From: an uncultured Acidobacteriota bacterium
GTDB lineage: Bacteria > Acidobacteriota > Vicinamibacteria > Vicinamibacterales > UBA2999
Assembly (NCBI GenBank): GCA_902826065.1
Contig: CADEDM010000010.1
Coordinates: forward strand, 1-51,800
Reading direction: 5' to 3'
DNA: 51,800 bases
The notes below the pieces were generated by a model, which was not told the DNA's origin, made no database searches, and saw only the letters and a program-made list of their open reading frames with translations. The translations under genes were made by a program, and so were the position numbers. Shown in pieces: positions 32,307 to 40,028 of the stretch. Each line of letters starts with the position of its first letter. The first letter of the stretch is position 1.

Positions 32307-33200
32307 TCAGCGGCTCGAGACGAAGTAGCCCGGGCGGGCGCGCACGTCGCCGCTGACGCCTTTGAGCCGCACCTTGACGTCGTGCCAGCCCTGGGCCGGC
32401 GTCCCCTTCGGCGTGTACAGCAGCAGGTAGCGCGCCCGCATCTCGCGCAGGACCTCGGCGAAGCGATTGCCGAGGTGCTCGGGTTCCTCAGCGCTCCAGA
32501 ACCGCCCGCCGCCCGCATCCAGGGGCAGCCTGAGCGACCGCGTCAGAACCTCGCGGCGATTGCGGGTCGCCAGCCCCACGGCGTGTACCACGACGCCCGA
32601 TCGTCGCACCACGTCATCGACGTCGGGGGCGTCCAGCCAACTGGCGTTGTCGTGGCCATCGGTGAAGAGCAGGACGAGCGGCCGCCGGTCCACCGGAGCG
32701 CCAGCGAGCTGCAGGCCCGCGAACAGCGCGTCGCGCCACGCCGTGTCGCCGTTCGCCTGCAGGCCGCCGAGCGCGCCCGCCACGTCATCGTGCTGCAGCG
32801 TGGGTGCCACCGCGAGCTGCAGCGCGTGCGAGAAGGTGACCAGGCCCACCTGGTCCTCGGGGCGCAACGCGCGTATCAGCGACCGCGCGGCCGCAACGAG
32901 CGCCCGCAAAGGCGCGCCCTCGAGACTCCGGCTGGTATCGAGCACGAGCAGGAGGCGCAACGGCACGTCTTCCTGCAGCACGCGCTCCACGGCGTGCACG
33001 ACGCCGTTGTCGTGCACCTCGAACTGCTCGGCCGTCAGGCCGGCGACCGGGTTGATTCCCCGCGTCACGGACACGTCCACCCGCACCTGCTCGATGCCGG
33101 CGCGGAAGAACGGATCCTGCGCCTGCACCAGCGGCGAGGGCCACGCCGACAGCACGGCGACGGCCGCGGCCGTCAGCGTGACAGACGTTCGCGCAGCCAT
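32307..33200 (-). CDS. exported VWFA-domain protein (acidobacterial VWFA-related type)
   Basis: A 297-residue protein: signal peptide (VTLTAAAVAVLSAWPSPLVQ), a short Ig-like strand set with the LTAEQFEVHDNG motif of VWFA-related Acidobacteriota proteins, then a von Willebrand A domain with an intact MIDAS DTSRS and a later LFTDGHDN. It ends RARPGYFVSSR, the RxGYF-type end common in this group. Function is unknown; VWFA domains bind proteins through a divalent metal. The ATG at 33198-33200 lies 28 nt inside the end of the preceding VWFA gene, so the two are overlapped and co-expressed. Confidence 0.82.
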   Translation of the reverse strand: MAARTSVTLTAAAVAVLSAWPSPLVQAQDPFFRAGIEQVRVDVSVTRGINPVAGLTAEQFEVHDNGVVHAVERVLQEDVPLRLLLVLDTSRSLEGAPLRALVAAARSLIRALRPEDQVGLVTFSHALQLAVAPTLQHDDVAGALGGLQANGDTAWRDALFAGLQLAGAPVDRRPLVLLFTDGHDNASWLDAPDVDDVVRRSGVVVHAVGLATRNRREVLTRSLRLPLDAGGGRFWSAEEPEHLGNRFAEVLREMRARYLLLYTPKGTPAQGWHDVKVRLKGVSGDVRARPGYFVSSR

Positions 33201-35239
33201 TCCAGGTCCTCGGTTTGCACCCCGCCGCTGCGGTAGGTCCACCACTCGTCCGCGTCACTCGCGGAGCCCAGGTGTGACGCCACCACCTCGCGGGCCCGCT
33301 CCAGGCGCCCTGCCCGCTGCTCGAGTTGCGCCAGCGCCAGCCAGGACGTCTGGCGATTCGGCGCGATGGCCTCGAGGCCCTCGAGCAGGGCGCGCGCGGG
33401 CTCGACGTCCCCGGCGCGTTCGTAGTCGGCGGCGAGGAACAGCGTGGCCAGGTAGCGATCGCCAGTGGAGCGGGCTTCGGCGGCCACCGATTCGAGCAGG
33501 CGGCGACCCTCCTCCCGGCGATCCAGCGCCAGCAGCACGCGCCCCAGATGAACCTGCGCTCTCACGTAGCCGGGATCGTCTGCAACCGCCGCGCGATACT
33601 CGCGTTCAGCCGACGCCAGCCGCGCCCGCAGTCTGCCGTGGTCGAGGCGCGCGTCGTAGACTTCGAGGCTCAGGCCCGCCACTTCCTCGATCCGGCCGGC
33701 CACGAACCGCACTCGTGACGCGTTGGGCACCTGGCGCTTCCCGCGATCGAGAATCTCCTTCGCACGCGGCCCATCGCTCTGGGCGAGAAAGATCGACGAC
33801 GCGGTGCCGTACCACCGATCCAGGAACTCGCGCACGCCTTCGTCCTTCACCGCTGGCGGCAGCGCTGCGAGCAGGCGTTCACCGAGCCTGAGGTGGTACA
33901 TGGCGTTGTCGGCGCTGCGCGGGGCGACGTCGAGCGCCACCTCGAGGTGGAACGTCGCTGCGGCGAACGCGAACGCCGGTTCGTTGCGCTGCGCCGCCGT
34001 CACCGCGTCCTCGAGCATCTCGCGCGACCAGCGGCCGACCAGCGTGTCGGCGCCGCGAAATGCCAGCGTCGTGCGAAAGCTCTCGACCGCCGCCTCGTAG
34101 GTCGCGCGCAAGGCGGGGAGTTGATCGGACGGGGACGCGCGTGGCACGAGGGCCGGTGCCGCCGTGGGCCCGATGACCACCGGCGCCGCAGGGGCGTCCC
34201 CAGTGGCGCCGTCCGCCGGTGGCAACTCGACCGTCGTCGTCGTGCGCACGTCGGGTGACGACGCGAGGTAGCCGGCCCGATGCCGGGCCCGCGCGCCGCT
34301 CCGCGTCGCCTCCACCGTGACGCGGTGGAAGCGCCCGTCCTCCGGAGACGTCGGCGTGTACTCGACCGTGTATTCGAAGGCGAGGTCGGTGACCAGGTGT
34401 GTCACCGCCTCCGCGGCTTCCGAGGCGTCGCCGATCCGCTGGAACAGGCCGCCGCCTTCTACGACCACCCGCTCGAGCGCCGGATCGGGCTCGCGCGCGC
34501 GCACCGGCGAGTCGAAGAGCTGCGGCTTCACGATGCGGCGGTCCCGCACCGGCATGTAGCCCCGCCCGTAGTCCGGCGGCATGCCGATCGCCATCTCGAT
34601 GGCGTGCACGGTCGTCTCGCTGCGGAACCGCGTCGTCACCAGGTTCGACAGCAGCACCTGGCGGTCGCCGCCGATGCCGTCGCTCACCAGCAGCACCACA
34701 CGACGCGGATGGCGGGCGCGGTCGAGCACGTCGAGTGCGGCGAGCATCGTGTAGTCGAGGCTCCAGGGTCGCTGGCGTACGGCGGTCCAGTCGACCGTCG
34801 TGACGTCGCCTGCGGGCGTGAGCGGCAGCCGCACGTCGGCGGCGGTGAGCATCACCAGCGCCGCGATCTCGTCGCGCGGTTCGAGCGCCTGCGACAGGGC
34901 GCGGATGGTCGCGTCGGCGATGCGGCGCTTGGCCGGCTGGTCGTCGCTCATCGAGGCGTCGAACACGACGCACACGCTCACGGGACGGCGGACCGTCCTG
35001 AGCCGGGTGATGGCCTGCGGCCGCCCGTCCTCGACGACGCGGAACTCGGCCGCCGTCAGATCGTCGAGATAGCGGTCCTGGCCGGCGTTCGTGACGGCGA
35101 CGCCCAGCGTGACCGGCGGCGCCGGCGTCGAGGTCGCAGGCGCGGGTGGCACGACGATGGGCGCCTGCGCGAAGCCGACCGCGCCACCCGTCGCCGCCAG
35201 GGCGATCCACAGATACCGAACCGCACGCGGCCCGACCAT
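33173..35239 (-). CDS. exported VWFA-domain protein with TPR-like C-terminus
   Basis: A 688-residue protein: signal peptide (WIALAATGGAVGFAQAP), the LTAAEFRVVEDG motif, VWFA domain with MIDAS DASMS and LLVSDGIGG, ending RHRAGYLAS near residue 320. A proline/alanine-rich linker follows, then a helical C-terminal region of about 330 residues with TPR-like units such as YVRAQVHLGRVLLALDRREE and YLATLFLAADYERAGDVEPA. It probably scaffolds an envelope complex together with the smaller VWFA protein. It is divergent from the ECF sigma gene (147 bp between starts). Start ATG at 35237-35239, with GATACT 9 nt upstream. Confidence 0.82.
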   Translation of the reverse strand: MVGPRAVRYLWIALAATGGAVGFAQAPIVVPPAPATSTPAPPVTLGVAVTNAGQDRYLDDLTAAEFRVVEDGRPQAITRLRTVRRPVSVCVVFDASMSDDQPAKRRIADATIRALSQALEPRDEIAALVMLTAADVRLPLTPAGDVTTVDWTAVRQRPWSLDYTMLAALDVLDRARHPRRVVLLVSDGIGGDRQVLLSNLVTTRFRSETTVHAIEMAIGMPPDYGRGYMPVRDRRIVKPQLFDSPVRAREPDPALERVVVEGGGLFQRIGDASEAAEAVTHLVTDLAFEYTVEYTPTSPEDGRFHRVTVEATRSGARARHRAGYLASSPDVRTTTTVELPPADGATGDAPAAPVVIGPTAAPALVPRASPSDQLPALRATYEAAVESFRTTLAFRGADTLVGRWSREMLEDAVTAAQRNEPAFAFAAATFHLEVALDVAPRSADNAMYHLRLGERLLAALPPAVKDEGVREFLDRWYGTASSIFLAQSDGPRAKEILDRGKRQVPNASRVRFVAGRIEEVAGLSLEVYDARLDHGRLRARLASAEREYRAAVADDPGYVRAQVHLGRVLLALDRREEGRRLLESVAAEARSTGDRYLATLFLAADYERAGDVEPARALLEGLEAIAPNRQTSWLALAQLEQRAGRLERAREVVASHLGSASDADEWWTYRSGGVQTEDLEWLRERLSR

Positions 35240-35347
35240 GCGGAAGGCAGTATCGCCTGCCCGGACGATTCCCGGCCATGGCGGCCGGCGGTTGGGCTGG
35301 TGGGGTGCCTGGCGGTCACACCGCCGGCCGGCCGTCCCGGCCGACCG

Positions 35348-35384
35348 GTAACACCGCCACCCGTCCCTGGTGTTCCACTGTTAC
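35348..35384 (+). promoter_or_regulatory. nested inverted repeats just before the ECF sigma start
   Basis: GTAACA (35348-35353) can pair with TGTTAC (35379-35384), while the overlapping AACACC (35350-35355) can pair with GGTGTT (35369-35374). The two pairings exclude each other. The block ends 2 nt before the GTG start. It may be a promoter/operator of the sigma gene or a structured leader. Confidence 0.3.
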
Positions 35385-35386
35385 GC

Positions 35387-35866
35387 GTGACCGACGACGA
35401 GGTGGAGGCGTTGTGCCACCGCTACGGCCCGATGGTGCTGCGGCGCTGCCAGCGGCTGCTGGGGACGGGCGAGGACGCCCGCGACGCGTGTCAGGACGTC
35501 TTCGTGCGGCTGGTGCAGCACCGCCGGCGGCTCGACGACGCCTACCCGTCGAGCCTGCTGTACCGCATCGCCACCAACGTGTGCCTGAACCGCATTCGCG
35601 AACGCGGCCGGCGGCCGGCGGCCGACGAGGGAGAGCGATTGCTGCACGAGATCGCGTCGATCGGCGAACCCGGCGCGTTGAGTGACGCGCGCCTGGCGCT
35701 GGAGCGGTTGTTCAGCCGGCATCCGGTGTCGAGTCGCACGATGGCCGTGCTGCACTTCGTCGATGGCCTGACGCTGGAGCAGGTGGCCGAGGAGACCGCG
35801 ATGTCCGTCTCGGGCGTGCGCAAGCGCCTGCGGCGGCTGCGTGCGTCGCTGGTGGGAGGGCAGTGA
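35387..35866 (+). CDS. ECF-type RNA polymerase sigma factor
   Basis: A 159-residue sigma-70 family protein with sigma-2 (YGPMVLRRCQRLLGTGEDAR, DVFVRL, and SSLLYRIATNVCLNRIRERG) and sigma-4 (HFVDGLTLEQVAEETAMSVS, then GVRKRLRRLR) regions and no sigma-3, i.e. the ECF layout. The GTG at 35387 is the only reasonable start in the frame; nested inverted repeats end 2 nt before it. The stop codon TGA shares its A with the ATG of the next gene, whose N-terminus looks like an anti-sigma factor. It most likely controls its own operon, including the caspase-like gene. Confidence 0.87.
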   Translation: MTDDEVEALCHRYGPMVLRRCQRLLGTGEDARDACQDVFVRLVQHRRRLDDAYPSSLLYRIATNVCLNRIRERGRRPAADEGERLLHEIASIGEPGALSDARLALERLFSRHPVSSRTMAVLHFVDGLTLEQVAEETAMSVSGVRKRLRRLRASLVGGQ

Positions 35867-36657
35867 TGACGACGACCGAGACCGACCCGGCCGCGATTCC
35901 CGACCTGGTCCTCGAGCGCCATCAGCTCGGCGAGCTGCCGGCGGCCGCCGCGGCCGGCGTGCGCGCGGCGCTCGACGTGGACGGCGATCTGCGGGCGCGG
36001 CTCGAGGCCCTGGCCGCCGATGACGTCCGGCAGCGCGAGCAGTACCCGCCCGCGGCGCTCGCCGCCGACGTGCAGCGTCGGGTCCGCGCCGGGTCCGCGC
36101 CGTCGCGCGCCTGGCGCTACGCACTGCTCGCGCCCGCCGCCGCCGTGCTCGCGGTCATCGTCGCCCGCGGACTGCCGCCGACGTCGCCATCCGCGCGTGG
36201 CAGCGACCCGGGCGTGGACGACGACGTCCGCATCAAGGGCGTCGACGCGTCGCTGATGGTGTACCGCCATGTCGGCGGCGGCAGCGAGCCGCTGCGCGAG
36301 TCGGACGTGGCCCGGCCCGGCGATATCATCCGCGTCGGCTATCGCGTGTCAGAGGACGCCTACGGCGCCATCGTGTCGATCGACGGCCGCGGCGTGGTGA
36401 CCCAGCACCTGCCGGCGCGGGGCGGCGCCGCGGCGGCGCTGCACGCCGGCGCCACCGTGCTGCTCGATGACGCCTTCGAGCTCGACGACGCGCCGCGCGT
36501 CGAGCGTTTCTACCTGGTCAGCGCCCGGCATCCGTTCGACGTCGCGACGGTGGCCGAGGCGATTCGCGCCACGCCGGACGGCAACGCCGCCCGGCCCGCG
36601 CTGGCCGACGACTTCACGTTCACTACGTTCTCGCTGCGGAAGGAGCCCCGTCCATGA
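35866..36657 (+). CDS. anti-sigma-like membrane protein with DUF4384 domain
   Basis: A 263-residue protein. N-terminus: ERHQLGELPAAAAAGVRAAL and DGDLRARLEAL, an arrangement like the helical anti-sigma (ZAS-like) domain but without the zinc HxxxCxxC motif. A transmembrane helix follows at about 86-103 (YALLAPAAAVLAVIVARGLP). The outer part is a DUF4384 beta domain (LMVYRHVGGGSEPLRESDVA, VSEDAYGAIVSIDGRGVV). The likely role is to hold the ECF sigma factor at the membrane and release it on an envelope signal read by DUF4384; this is inferred from order and domains. ATG 35866 overlaps the sigma stop by one base; GGGAGGG precedes it. Confidence 0.78.
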   Translation: MTTTETDPAAIPDLVLERHQLGELPAAAAAGVRAALDVDGDLRARLEALAADDVRQREQYPPAALAADVQRRVRAGSAPSRAWRYALLAPAAAVLAVIVARGLPPTSPSARGSDPGVDDDVRIKGVDASLMVYRHVGGGSEPLRESDVARPGDIIRVGYRVSEDAYGAIVSIDGRGVVTQHLPARGGAAAALHAGATVLLDDAFELDDAPRVERFYLVSARHPFDVATVAEAIRATPDGNAARPALADDFTFTTFSLRKEPRP

Positions 36658-38237
36658 CCTCACGTCGACTGCTCTCCAGCCTCGCGGTGGCCATGCTCTG
36701 GACGGCGGGCGCGCAGGCGCAGACGCTCGAACGGCATGCGCTCATCGTGGGCGCCAACAACGGCGGCCCCGATCGGCCGCGCCTGCACTACGCCGTGGCG
36801 GATGCCGAACGCGTCGCCCGCGTGCTCGGCGAACTGGGCGGCGTGGGCGCGGCGCACGAGACGGTGCTGCGCGATCCGCAGGCCGCGGACCTGCTGGCCG
36901 CGCTCGACCGCCTCAAGGCCCGCCTCACCGCCGCGCGCGCCAGCGGACGTCCGCCGGCGCGGACCGAGGTGTTCGTCTACTACTCGGGACATGCGGACGA
37001 ACGGGGGCTGCTGCTCGACGACGACCGCGTGTCGTACCGCACGCTGCGCGAGCGTCTCGACGCGCTGCCGGCCGACGTCCGTATCGCCGTCCTCGACGCC
37101 TGCTCGTCGGGCTCGTTCACGCGTCCCAAGGGCGGCACCCGCCGTCCGCCGTTCCTCGTCGACGAGTCGGCCGCCATGAAGGGCTACGCGTTCATCACGT
37201 CGAGTGCGGCGTCGGAAGCGGCGCAGGAATCGGACCGCATCCGCGCCTCGTTCTTCACGCACTATCTCGTCTCGGGCTTCCGTGGTGCAGCGGACACCTC
37301 GGGCGACGGGCGCGTGACGCTCAACGAGGCCTACCAGTTCGCCTTCGCCGAGACCCTGGGCCGCACCGTGGATACGCGCGGCGGCGCGCAGCACCCGACC
37401 TACGAGATCAACCTCACCGGCGCCGGCGACGTGGTGATCACCGACGTCCGCCAGACCACCGCGCGCCTGGTGCTCGAAGACGCCCTCGAGGGCCGCACCT
37501 TCGTGCGCACGCCGTCGCGGATGCTCGTGGCCGAGCTGTACAAGCCGGCCGGCCGCGAGATCGAGATCGCGCTGGCGCCCGGTGCCTACGACGTGAAGGT
37601 GGAACGCGGCCGCGCCACCGTGGGCGCCACCATCACGGTCGCCGACGAGGCCCGTGCGGTCGTGCGTGCGGCGCAGCTCACGCCGGCGGCGCCCGAGCCC
37701 ACGCGCCGGCGCGGCGCCGACACCGGCGACCACGCCGTGCAGGGCGCCTATCGATTCACCCTCCAGTCGAGTCTGTGGGGCACGCACGGCGACGCCATGA
37801 GCCTGGGCGGCTGGCGTCCGGATATCACCGGCGGCGCGCTGCTGTCGCGCTACCTGACCGAGCGGCTGGCCGTCAGCGCCGGATTCACCGTCTACGGATC
37901 CGGCGAGCAGGTGGATGTCATCGGCGGCTTCGCGCTGCCGCTGGGCGTGCAGTGGAATCCACGCCGCGGCGCTGCGTCGGCCGGCCGGTTCAAGCCCTTC
38001 CTGTCGGCGCAGCTGCTGCCCATCACCGCCGCCGACTCCGAATGGTCGCGACGCTACAGCGTGGGCGTGGGGGTGGGCGCGGGATTCGACCTGCACCTGT
38101 CGCCCGCCTTCGCGCTCGGCCTCACCGGTGCGTTCAATGCCGTGCCGCGATTCACGCGCACCGCCGGCCGGCACGACACCTATCACGGGCCCGAGCTGGC
38201 GCTGCGAACGAGCTGGATGATCGGACGTGGCCGCTAG
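36654..38237 (+). CDS. caspase-family (C14) protease with beta-barrel-like C-terminus
   Basis: A 527-residue protein: signal peptide (LLSSLAVAMLWTAGAQAQ), then a caspase/metacaspase-like p20 domain opening ERHALIVGANNGG, with the catalytic dyad H113 (YYSGHADERG) and C150 (VLDACSSGSF). HYLVSGFRGAADTSGDGRVT closes the domain near residue 220. A PEGA-like beta segment lies at about 255-345 (LYKPAGREIEIALAPGAYDV). From about 360 the chain is a run of alternating amphipathic strands (FTLQSSLWGTHGD, YSVGVGVGAGFDLHLSPAFA) that looks like an outer-membrane barrel. Export means any cleavage would act in the envelope. Start overlaps the DUF4384 stop (ATGA). Confidence 0.85.
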   Translation: MTSRRLLSSLAVAMLWTAGAQAQTLERHALIVGANNGGPDRPRLHYAVADAERVARVLGELGGVGAAHETVLRDPQAADLLAALDRLKARLTAARASGRPPARTEVFVYYSGHADERGLLLDDDRVSYRTLRERLDALPADVRIAVLDACSSGSFTRPKGGTRRPPFLVDESAAMKGYAFITSSAASEAAQESDRIRASFFTHYLVSGFRGAADTSGDGRVTLNEAYQFAFAETLGRTVDTRGGAQHPTYEINLTGAGDVVITDVRQTTARLVLEDALEGRTFVRTPSRMLVAELYKPAGREIEIALAPGAYDVKVERGRATVGATITVADEARAVVRAAQLTPAAPEPTRRRGADTGDHAVQGAYRFTLQSSLWGTHGDAMSLGGWRPDITGGALLSRYLTERLAVSAGFTVYGSGEQVDVIGGFALPLGVQWNPRRGAASAGRFKPFLSAQLLPITAADSEWSRRYSVGVGVGAGFDLHLSPAFALGLTGAFNAVPRFTRTAGRHDTYHGPELALRTSWMIGRGR

Positions 38238-39327
38238 ATCGGCCGCCGTCGTCGCGGCGGTGCTCGCGGCCCTGACGCTGGTCCGGGCCGAGCCGGGATC
38301 CGTGCCCGTCGTGCCGGCGTCCATGGCCGACGCGCTCGATGGCGCGTTGCGCGAGTGGCTCGACGCGCCCGGCCACGTGGGCGTCAGCGCCGCCGTGATT
38401 CGGCCCGACGGCGCACGCTGGGAGGGCGCGGTGGGCGCGGCATCGCCCGACGCGCCGTTGACGCCCGACCACCGCATGCCCATCGCCAGCATCACCAAGA
38501 CGATGACGGCAGGCGTGGTGTTGACGCTCGTCGACGACGGCGTGCTGCAGCTCGACGACACCGTGACCCGCTGGCTCGGGCCGCGCCGGAACGTCGATGC
38601 CCGCATCACCCTGCGCCAGTTGCTCACGCACTCCGCCGGACTCGCCAACGTCGCGGAGTCGCCGGCGCTGCAGCGGGCCGCGGCCGCCGATCACGCGCAC
38701 GTGTACACGGCCGACGAGCTGTTGACGTATCTCGGGCCGCCCGTGGCGCCGCCAGGCGCTCGCACGCAGTACACCAACACCGCCTCGGTGCTGCTGGCGC
38801 TCGTCGCGGAACACGCCACCGGCCGCCCGCTCGTCGAGCTGTATCACCAGCGCCTCTGGGATCCGCTGGACCTGCGCGAGGTGTACTTCCCGGGCTACGA
38901 GGAGCCGACGCTGCCCGTGGCGTGGTCGTTCGGCACGATCGGCTGGTTTCCATCGGTGACGCGCATCTCGCAGCTCACCGCCGGCCACGCCGCCGGGGGC
39001 CTCGTCGCCTCCGCGCGCGACATCGCCACGTGGGGCCATGCACTCTTCGCCGGCCACGTGATCTCGGACGATCTGCAGACGGCGATGCGCGAGCTGCGTC
39101 CCGCGGCGGGGAACATCCCCGGCGAGACCGGCGTGGGCCTCGGCATCCGCGGCTACGGCTTCTTCGACCGCGTCCAGTACGGACACAGCGGCGGCGGTGG
39201 GTTCAACAGCAGCCTGCTGCTGTTCGATCCCGACTCCGGTGTGACCGTCGCCGTGTCGATGAACCAGGCCCTCGACGCCGCGCACTTCGAACTGGCGCCG
39301 CGGCTGCTGACGATCGCCGCGCCCTGA
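38227..39327 (+). CDS. exported serine hydrolase, beta-lactamase class C/esterase family
   Basis: A 366-residue protein with an N-terminal signal (AAVVAAVLAALTLVRAEP). Active-site motifs: S88-I-T-K91 (SxxK), YTN in RTQYTNTASVL (YxN), and HSG (YGHSGGGGFNSS) in the third position, with THSAGLANV as a supporting block. All three are canonical, unlike the YSG variant of the serine hydrolase at 1748. Typical roles are peptidoglycan peptidase or esterase. The GTG start lies 11 bp inside the end of the caspase gene, so it belongs to the same operon and may process envelope material in the same response. Confidence 0.83.
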   Translation: MAARSAAVVAAVLAALTLVRAEPGSVPVVPASMADALDGALREWLDAPGHVGVSAAVIRPDGARWEGAVGAASPDAPLTPDHRMPIASITKTMTAGVVLTLVDDGVLQLDDTVTRWLGPRRNVDARITLRQLLTHSAGLANVAESPALQRAAAADHAHVYTADELLTYLGPPVAPPGARTQYTNTASVLLALVAEHATGRPLVELYHQRLWDPLDLREVYFPGYEEPTLPVAWSFGTIGWFPSVTRISQLTAGHAAGGLVASARDIATWGHALFAGHVISDDLQTAMRELRPAAGNIPGETGVGLGIRGYGFFDRVQYGHSGGGGFNSSLLLFDPDSGVTVAVSMNQALDAAHFELAPRLLTIAAP

Positions 39328-39422
39328 GCCGCCGTCGCGCGGAACACATTCCCGATCTCCCGGTGTTCAAGCCCTTGCGCGACTGACCGCGCAGCGCGCC
39401 GTGCCGGCGCGGGGAGGCGCGG

Positions 39423-40028
39423 ATGAATCGATGGGCAACGGCTGCCGTGGTCGCAGCGCTGGTGATGCTGAGCGCGGGCGACGCGTTGGCACAGCGCGTC
39501 GGGTGGGGGGTGAAGGGCGGATTCGTGGCGGGCTCGCTGGCCGTGAGCGGCCCCGGCGAGTTCGAGACCTCGGCGGACGCAGGCGCCATGGTCGGCGTCT
39601 TCGCCGGCGTCGATCTGCATCCGCTCGTCCGCCTGCAACCCGAGATCTACTGGAGCGTGCGCCGGTTCTCCACCACCGATCAGCCGACGAAGTTCTCCGT
39701 GTCGGCCTCGGGCCTTGAGCTGCCGCTGCTGCTGCAGGTACGTGCGCCACGCGCCTCGGCCACCCGCGCCGTGGTCTTCGCCGGACCGCAGTTGAACGTG
39801 ATCCGCGGCGTCACGCAGGACGTCGGCAACCTGCGGATCGACATCGACGACCAGGTCGAGGACACGGACATCGCGCTGGTGTTCGGCGCCGGCGTCGAGC
39901 GAGCGCTGGCGCGAGGCGCGCTCGTGGCCGACGTCCGCTATGTGCTGGGGACGCGCAACCTGAACGCCGCGGCCGGACCCGATCAGAAAGCGCGTGCGCT
40001 GCAGGTACTCGTCGGCTACCGCTTCTGA
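39423..40028 (+). CDS. outer-membrane beta-barrel protein (PorT-like)
   Basis: A 201-residue protein with a signal peptide (TAAVVAALVMLSAGDALA, then QR) and about eight alternating amphipathic strands, e.g. GWGVKGGFVAGSLAVSG, GVFAGVDLHPLVRLQPEIYW and a last strand ALQVLVGYRF that ends in Phe, the classical barrel-insertion signal. This matches the small outer-membrane barrel (OMP_b-brl) family. A Shine-Dalgarno GGGGAGG precedes the ATG at 39423. It is 95 bp after the serine hydrolase; it could be the last gene of that operon or separate. Its end is 7 bp from the convergent AraC-type gene. Confidence 0.8.
   Translation: MNRWATAAVVAALVMLSAGDALAQRVGWGVKGGFVAGSLAVSGPGEFETSADAGAMVGVFAGVDLHPLVRLQPEIYWSVRRFSTTDQPTKFSVSASGLELPLLLQVRAPRASATRAVVFAGPQLNVIRGVTQDVGNLRIDIDDQVEDTDIALVFGAGVERALARGALVADVRYVLGTRNLNAAAGPDQKARALQVLVGYRF

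Follow-up and report, generated by a model that had tools for sequence, protein, structure and literature searches.

The stretch of DNA analysed, hereafter the window, comprises 51.8 kb of the 5.6 Mb genome of an uncultured Acidobacteriota bacterium. It carries four forward-strand genes that overlap by 1, 4, and 11 bp, exactly as the original prediction had claimed, and their coordinates were confirmed. A fifth gene, which that prediction had missed, begins 95 bp after the fourth. The features of the locus are as follows.

35346–35374, forward strand: predicted operon promoter, GGTAACACC-N13-GGTGTT, 12 nt 5' of the GTG of the sigma gene (19.5 bits)
35387–35866, forward strand: ECF sigma factor, 159 aa, GTG start (Sigma70_r2, 2e-15; Sigma70_r4_2; TIGR02937, 1.4e-19)
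35866–36657, forward strand: anti-sigma, 263 aa, with a helical N-terminus, one TM helix, and an outer DUF4384-like beta-sandwich (profiles, AlphaFold)
36106–36168, forward strand: anti-sigma TM helix, residues 81–101 (secondary structure of the model; hydrophobic stretch in the alignment)
36229–36240, forward strand: R122-I-K124-G125 of the anti-sigma, candidate cut K124/G125 (R in 33/34, K in 34/34, G in 34/34)
36654–38237, forward strand: exported C14 caspase with a C-terminal eight-strand outer-membrane barrel, 527 aa (Peptidase_C14, 3e-12; model)
36990–36992, forward strand: catalytic His113 (YYSGHAD)
37101–37103, forward strand: catalytic Cys150 (LDACSSG)
37119–37136, forward strand: T156-R-P-K159-G-G161 of the caspase, the (T)R-x-K-G-G loop, a candidate self-processing site (caspase comparison)
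37749–38222, forward strand: C-terminal barrel domain of the caspase protein (Foldseek, OprG profile)
38227–39327, forward strand: exported PF00144 serine hydrolase, 366 aa (Beta-lactamase PF00144, 6e-56)
39339–39367, forward strand: second predicted sigma promoter, GGAACACATT-N11-GGTGTT with one mismatch, 55 nt 5' of gene 5 (16.1 bits)
39423–40028, forward strand: outer-membrane beta-barrel protein, 201 aa, gene 5 (OMP_b-brl PF13505, 1.4e-14)

The product of the first gene consisted of sigma regions 2 and 4 only, as is characteristic of ECF sigma factors, and its profile matched the structures of SigW, SigE, and RpoE. The adjoining gene encodes a predicted single-pass membrane protein with a cytoplasmic helical anti-sigma domain, the N-terminus of which matched anti-sigmaE-like sequences (E 2e-5). 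In its AlphaFold model (mean pLDDT 85), the helical N-terminus and the TM helix were followed by a hypervariable linker and then by a beta-sandwich. The profile of the N-terminal part also retrieved other anti-sigma proteins, and a sigma gene adjoined 8 of 10 of these. The outer part had originally been assigned to DUF4384 (PF14326); a match was indeed obtained (4e-5), but its score of 24 bits lay under the Pfam cut-off of 27 bits and only 7 of 34 family members matched at all, so the term DUF4384-like is used here. A fold search with this domain returned only generic Ig-like or RhoGDI matches, none with E below 0.001, and the anti-sigma profile had no match among the sequences of solved structures. 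Another DUF4384 match, at full strength, was observed elsewhere in the same genome (L001, G000:C53).

Caspases are proteases known from animal cell death. In the third gene product, the intact His-Cys of a C14 protease stated by the original prediction was borne out, as the p20 domain contained His113 and Cys150, both invariant in 24 homologues. The protein comprises a signal peptide (approximately residues 1–23), the caspase part (27–255), a small beta domain (approximately 270–340), and a C-terminal barrel (366–523) that had previously escaped notice. Foldseek comparison of the predicted model related the caspase part to procaspase-7, metacaspases, and MALT1, and the eight antiparallel strands of the OmpA/OmpW-type barrel to NspA, OmpW, OprF, and OmpA; the sequence profile of the barrel matched OprG (E 0.003). 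The middle region of the model was of low confidence (pLDDT below 50 at residues 151–190 and 213–268). As a small outer-membrane barrel keeps its N- and C-terminus on the periplasmic side, a periplasmic location is expected for the caspase domain. In the Fibrobacter and Myxococcota caspases, the C-terminus was formed by G-x-Q-x-x-x-x-N repeats that matched the NCBI LA_2272 "surface repeat" and for which no solved structural relative was found. The last residue of the Fibrobacter copies is Phe, in which outer-membrane barrels often end. Judging from these sequences, the anchor of the caspase differs between lineages yet appears to remain of the surface type. Two other C14 caspase matches were present in the host genome (L244, G000:C97; L261, G000:C88); sigma and anti-sigma genes were absent from both stretches, and the L244 caspase carried no K-G loop.

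The scan of species genomes with the caspase as the sole query yielded 79 loci in Acidobacteriota, Gemmatimonadota, Fibrobacterota, Myxococcota, Latescibacterota, Eisenbacteria, Fermentibacteria, and Spirochaetes; the closest full-length relatives were acidobacterial. In 71 of the 79 loci, a sigma gene and an anti-sigma gene were located directly upstream on the same strand, commonly with overlaps of 1 or 4 bp, and the eight exceptions include contig ends (L043, L046) and one reordering (L021). The conserved core thus consists of three genes, which encode, in this order, an ECF sigma factor, an anti-sigma that has a single TM helix and an outer domain of the DUF4384-like kind, and an exported C14 caspase. 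The reverse search, with the anti-sigma profile against 396 Acidobacteriota genomes, gave 10 full-length matches (E < 1e-68), separated by a clean gap from partial matches (E > 1e-9) that mostly covered the N-terminal part of the protein. The sigma gene adjoined all 10 full-length matches, and a caspase was present in all 10 stretches (nine at full strength and one partial). At E 1e-15, the anti-sigma family was detected in 134 of 195 Myxococcota and 107 of 150 Fibrobacterota genomes. No further neighbours of the triad that are broadly common across phyla were found.

Within the window's own family (43 genomes searched), the other 42 genomes gave weak caspase matches in three only, and no match to the window caspase stronger than weak was found in four congeners, of which only G013 had close orthologues of the flanking genes, on separate contigs, so that the comparison yielded no empty site. 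This distribution would suit a reading in which the four genes are only loosely clustered and do not act together. However, such a reading is refuted for the first three genes and barely credible as a whole, because the same genes, in the same order and behind the same promoter, recur across phyla. Thus, the operon of the first three genes is real, and chance is excluded for them. The idea that all four genes form a conserved unit did not hold: as a conserved member the serine hydrolase was rejected, since the other retrieved loci were devoid of it apart from one distant match (L009).

Several variants of the arrangement were observed. At L241, L242, L264, and L266 (Myxococcaceae G546 and G560) and at L025, anti-sigma and caspase genes formed pairs with no sigma gene found adjoining; L241 and L242 had a sigma-type promoter directly 5' of the anti-sigma gene. 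Such pairs may be extra sensors feeding a sigma factor encoded elsewhere. Two tandem caspases per sigma/anti-sigma pair, with another gene between, were present at L026, L033, and L047 (Latescibacterota) and at L043. L008 had an anti-sigma devoid of its N-terminal part, no sigma gene, and an intact caspase, and is possibly a decaying or misassembled copy. In the window, the operon is adjoined by two divergent genes for VWA proteins (32307–35239, reverse strand; TIGR03436, acidobact_VWFA), one with TPRs.

When the upstream regions (180 bp each) of 52 non-redundant sigma genes were compared de novo, they revealed the bipartite motif GTRACA-N15-GGTGTT, the core pair of which occurred in 36 of the 52 upstream regions and in at most 5 in shuffles. 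A looser pattern preceded 70 of 71 sigma genes, the window counted. The consensus was GGTGACACTTT-N-GGTGTT, and the spacer was 15 in 43 of 44 sites. These features correspond to a predicted autoregulated −35/−10 promoter of fixed spacing; the short distances between promoter and start codon should not be over-read, since the start codons in the relatives were chosen by the analyst. When a matrix trained without the window was run over the 51.8 kb, the operon promoter ranked first (19.5 bits), followed by the site before gene 5 (16.1 bits) and by a site of 7.2 bits. A score of 15.6 bits was reached in one of six shuffles, so the evidence for the second site, which is likely without being certain, is moderate. 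The exact N15 form occurred once in the whole host genome, at the window operon.

The promoter is near-palindromic, GTAACACC and GGTGTTAC being inverted copies, and the window site scored weakly on the opposite strand (35350–35378), toward the divergent VWA genes. Such symmetry would also be expected if GTRACA-N15-GGTGTT were the operator of an unlinked regulator and not a sigma promoter. That explanation is very improbable, given that the orientation was fixed, the spacing nearly invariant, and the site located directly 5' of a gene and present only together with the module. The original prediction of a sigma/anti-sigma/caspase regulatory unit in the envelope is supported, as the three-gene linkage, the anti-sigma-type N-terminus, and the self-directed promoter agree with it.

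Counts of the motif, which cover the exact N15 form only and so miss weaker targets, gave 57 copies in 14 genomes against 5 for the reversed pattern. Module-bearing Myxococcota genomes (n = 10) contained 65 sites against 5 of the reversed control, and module-free ones (n = 20) contained 1 against 1; the former genomes are larger, but the difference in size is too small to account for the excess. Similarly, in Fibrobacterota, 45 sites against 13 were counted in module-bearing genomes (n = 15) and 5 against 14 in module-free genomes (n = 15). The motif is thus enriched only in genomes with the module. Genes behind the sites encoded MotA/ExbB and DUF2807 "head GIN" proteins in both phyla, as well as TonB-dependent receptors, LA_2272 repeat proteins, and PF00144 hydrolases. 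In two Myxococcaceae genomes (L273, L274), a sigma-site operon comprised ExbB, ExbD, a TonB-like protein, a receptor with an N-terminal TonB_C-like domain, a lipoprotein, and a caspase that again had the K-G loop (names assigned partly by eye), which ties the caspase family to the TonB machinery. In Fibrobacter G424 (C72 4271, L206; C72 8663, L207), the promoter preceded an FMN-reductase-like gene upstream and also, immediately behind the caspase, a gene for a TonB-receptor plug protein.

The window hydrolase showed the S-x-x-K, Y-x-N, and H-S-G motifs by eye. Two myxobacterial genomes had PF00144 hydrolases behind the sigma-specific promoter; the existence of these relatives in the same regulon supports its membership of the regulon and not of the core. 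It is an accessory gene whose place in the operon may be due to chance. Gene 5 probably belongs with the set as a regulon member.

The anti-sigma and the caspase share a short sequence motif. In the anti-sigma, the invariant R-x-K-G lies between the hypervariable linker and the outer domain, just outside the membrane. In the caspase, (T)R-x-K-G-G starts six residues past the catalytic Cys, with the Lys nine past it; the region after the catalytic Cys is where caspases undergo inter-subunit cutting and self-processing. R-x-K-G was missing in 9 of the 10 anti-sigmas that were not adjoined by a caspase, and (T)R-x-K-G-G was missing in three acidobacterial caspases (L004–L006) and six others with no such anti-sigma partner. 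Distant Myxococcal paralogous triads had x-x-K-G in both proteins, with one exception (V-R-G in the L271 anti-sigma). The caspases L259, L262, L265, and L268 were devoid of the Arg, as were their paired anti-sigmas; this co-loss is suggestive only, because the sequences are related. Other pairs were Arg-less on one side (L245, L264, L266, L269), so only K-G is near-universal. Caspases of the family with no adjoining anti-sigma were also encountered (L272, L012, L072, L077). The two occurrences could have separate explanations, K-G being structural in the caspase loop and marking the start of the DUF4384 fold in the anti-sigma. Orthocaspases cleave after basic residues, according to the abstract of PMC6426788.

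The three-gene linkage, the architecture of the anti-sigma, the export of the caspase and its C-terminus of barrel or surface-repeat type, the promoter and its dependence on the module, and the shared motif are computed results. We infer a cleavage and its position, an order of events, a direction of control, a topology, and a signal. In the proposed mechanism, the ECF sigma would be held at the inner membrane by the anti-sigma, and the caspase would be exported and anchored in the outer membrane through its C-terminal domain, with its protease domain facing the periplasm, in the same compartment as the DUF4384-like domain. A signal at the outer membrane would activate the caspase, probably through self-cleavage at TRxK/GG, and the activated caspase would cut the anti-sigma at R-x-K/G just outside the inner membrane. 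Further proteolysis would then free the sigma factor, and GTRACA-N15-GGTGTT promoters would allow it to transcribe both the operon that encodes it and the envelope regulon. That the tethered caspase cuts the anti-sigma at K/G and so frees the sigma for an envelope regulon appears, from the sequences, slightly more probable than not. It is favoured by the three-gene linkage, the predicted outer-membrane location, the promoter and regulon, the shared motif, the specificity of orthocaspases, and the precedent of Craspase; the Arg-less pairs, the V-R-G of L271, the caspases with no adjoining anti-sigma, the possible structural roles of K-G, and the low-confidence region of the caspase model count against it. 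The fuller version, in which the caspase is the site-1 protease of this transmembrane signalling and R-x-K/G serves both its own activation and the cut in the anti-sigma, is tentative and falls somewhat short of even probability.

The main alternative is that the caspase is an output: another protease would free the sigma, and the caspase, with the hydrolase and the barrel protein, would degrade envelope proteins, whether damaged, foreign, or the cell's own, and might kill the cell or an attacker. In that case, the K-G found in both proteins would be a matter of general specificity or of feedback. The caspase gene does lie downstream of the sigma gene in an autoregulated operon, the Myxococcaceae caspase in the sigma-driven TonB operon is not accompanied by its own anti-sigma, and metacaspases have been linked to bacterial cell death (PMC3501461). 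Nevertheless, the strict co-inheritance of the caspase with the anti-sigma family, the matching R-x-K-G in an exposed position next to the membrane, and a regulon made up of genes for transport and the cell surface, not toxins, make this reading unlikely, although by no means negligible. The original prediction had likewise envisaged a protease/hydrolase pair as a "cell-death" output; the regulon instead contained genes for TonB/ExbB, outer-membrane receptors, and surface lipoproteins, and the caspase seems to belong to the switch rather than to its output, which counts against that proposal. The switch and effector readings both predict induction of the caspase and differ on the need for its Cys in sigma activation.

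A pairing with no proteolysis at all is still less probable. The R-x-K-G of the anti-sigma might dock as a pseudo-substrate and keep the caspase inactive, or the caspase might be an outer-membrane receptor that shields the anti-sigma in the manner of a TonB-dependent transducer. The mimicry of the motif suits binding as much as cutting, and the title of PMC11637429 speaks of transducers that protect an anti-sigma factor from proteolysis; the invariance of His and Cys among close homologues, on the other hand, argues for catalysis.

Comparable genes have been recorded before. According to PMC3501461 (2012), four Myxococcus xanthus metacaspase operons include sigma-70 genes, and such operons recur in other Deltaproteobacteria, Ralstonia, and Fibrobacter. 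Those of Myxococcus, Anaeromyxobacter, Haliangium, Sorangium, Ralstonia, and Fibrobacter very probably represent the same cluster; the passage that describes them contains no anti-sigma, DUF4384, outer-membrane domain, promoter, regulon, motif, or mechanism. The earlier statement that no function had been described for the set thus stands as regards mechanism, since none for a sigma/anti-sigma/caspase module was found in the open-access literature searched, but the sigma–metacaspase operons themselves were noted in 2012.

A likeness in logic exists with Craspase, in which Csx29, a protein with a caspase fold, cuts Csx30 and so frees the ECF sigma (CASP-sigma) that Csx30 inhibits (PMC10028731). 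The caspase-fold protease of the window module would free its ECF sigma likewise, through the cut in the inhibitor proposed above. However, Csx29 is cytoplasmic, RNA-guided, CRISPR-associated, and of the CHAT type, whereas the window protease is predicted to be an exported, outer-membrane-tethered C14 enzyme; Csx30 has its cut between residues 427 and 429 and, in contrast to the membrane inhibitor of the window, does not belong to the membrane anti-sigmas. The window protease matched Peptidase_C14 and not CHAT, and Cas genes, of which Cas7-11 accompanies the CHAT protease in a type III-E CASP, were absent from the operon and the neighbour proteins scanned. The window module would therefore resemble Craspase only in logic. 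ECF54 sigma factors, with CHAT, subtilase, and carboxypeptidase neighbours, likewise have a caspase-clan neighbour proposed to control the sigma by proteolysis, but they differ from the window module in having no anti-sigma and no exported C14 caspases (PMC8999054). More generally, the module shares several features with signalling of the FecA/FecR/FecI type and with DegS/RseA/sigmaE. An outer-membrane or periplasmic signal, a single-pass anti-sigma, an ECF sigma, an envelope regulon, and TonB machinery characterise these systems. The outer-membrane partner of the FecA type is a TonB-dependent receptor, whereas in the module described here this part falls to a caspase that carries a barrel or surface repeats of its own, and the site-1 cutter of the DegS type is a PDZ serine protease, in place of which the window module would use a caspase. 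The outer-membrane C-terminus of the caspase, the GTRACA-N15-GGTGTT promoter with its regulon, and the paired R-x-K-G motifs are new.

The purpose of bacterial caspases is usually given as "programmed cell death." For a large conserved group of them, the present analysis names a specific substrate and a cleavage site, both as candidates, together with a promoter sequence and a regulon. If the proposed mechanism is true, the link between a caspase fold and a sigma inhibitor in Craspase would have a counterpart outside CRISPR, and non-lethal caspase signalling would be widespread and have a regulon that can be predicted in Myxococcota, Fibrobacterota, and Acidobacteriota. Proteases of the caspase type would then serve ordinary envelope signalling in bacteria.
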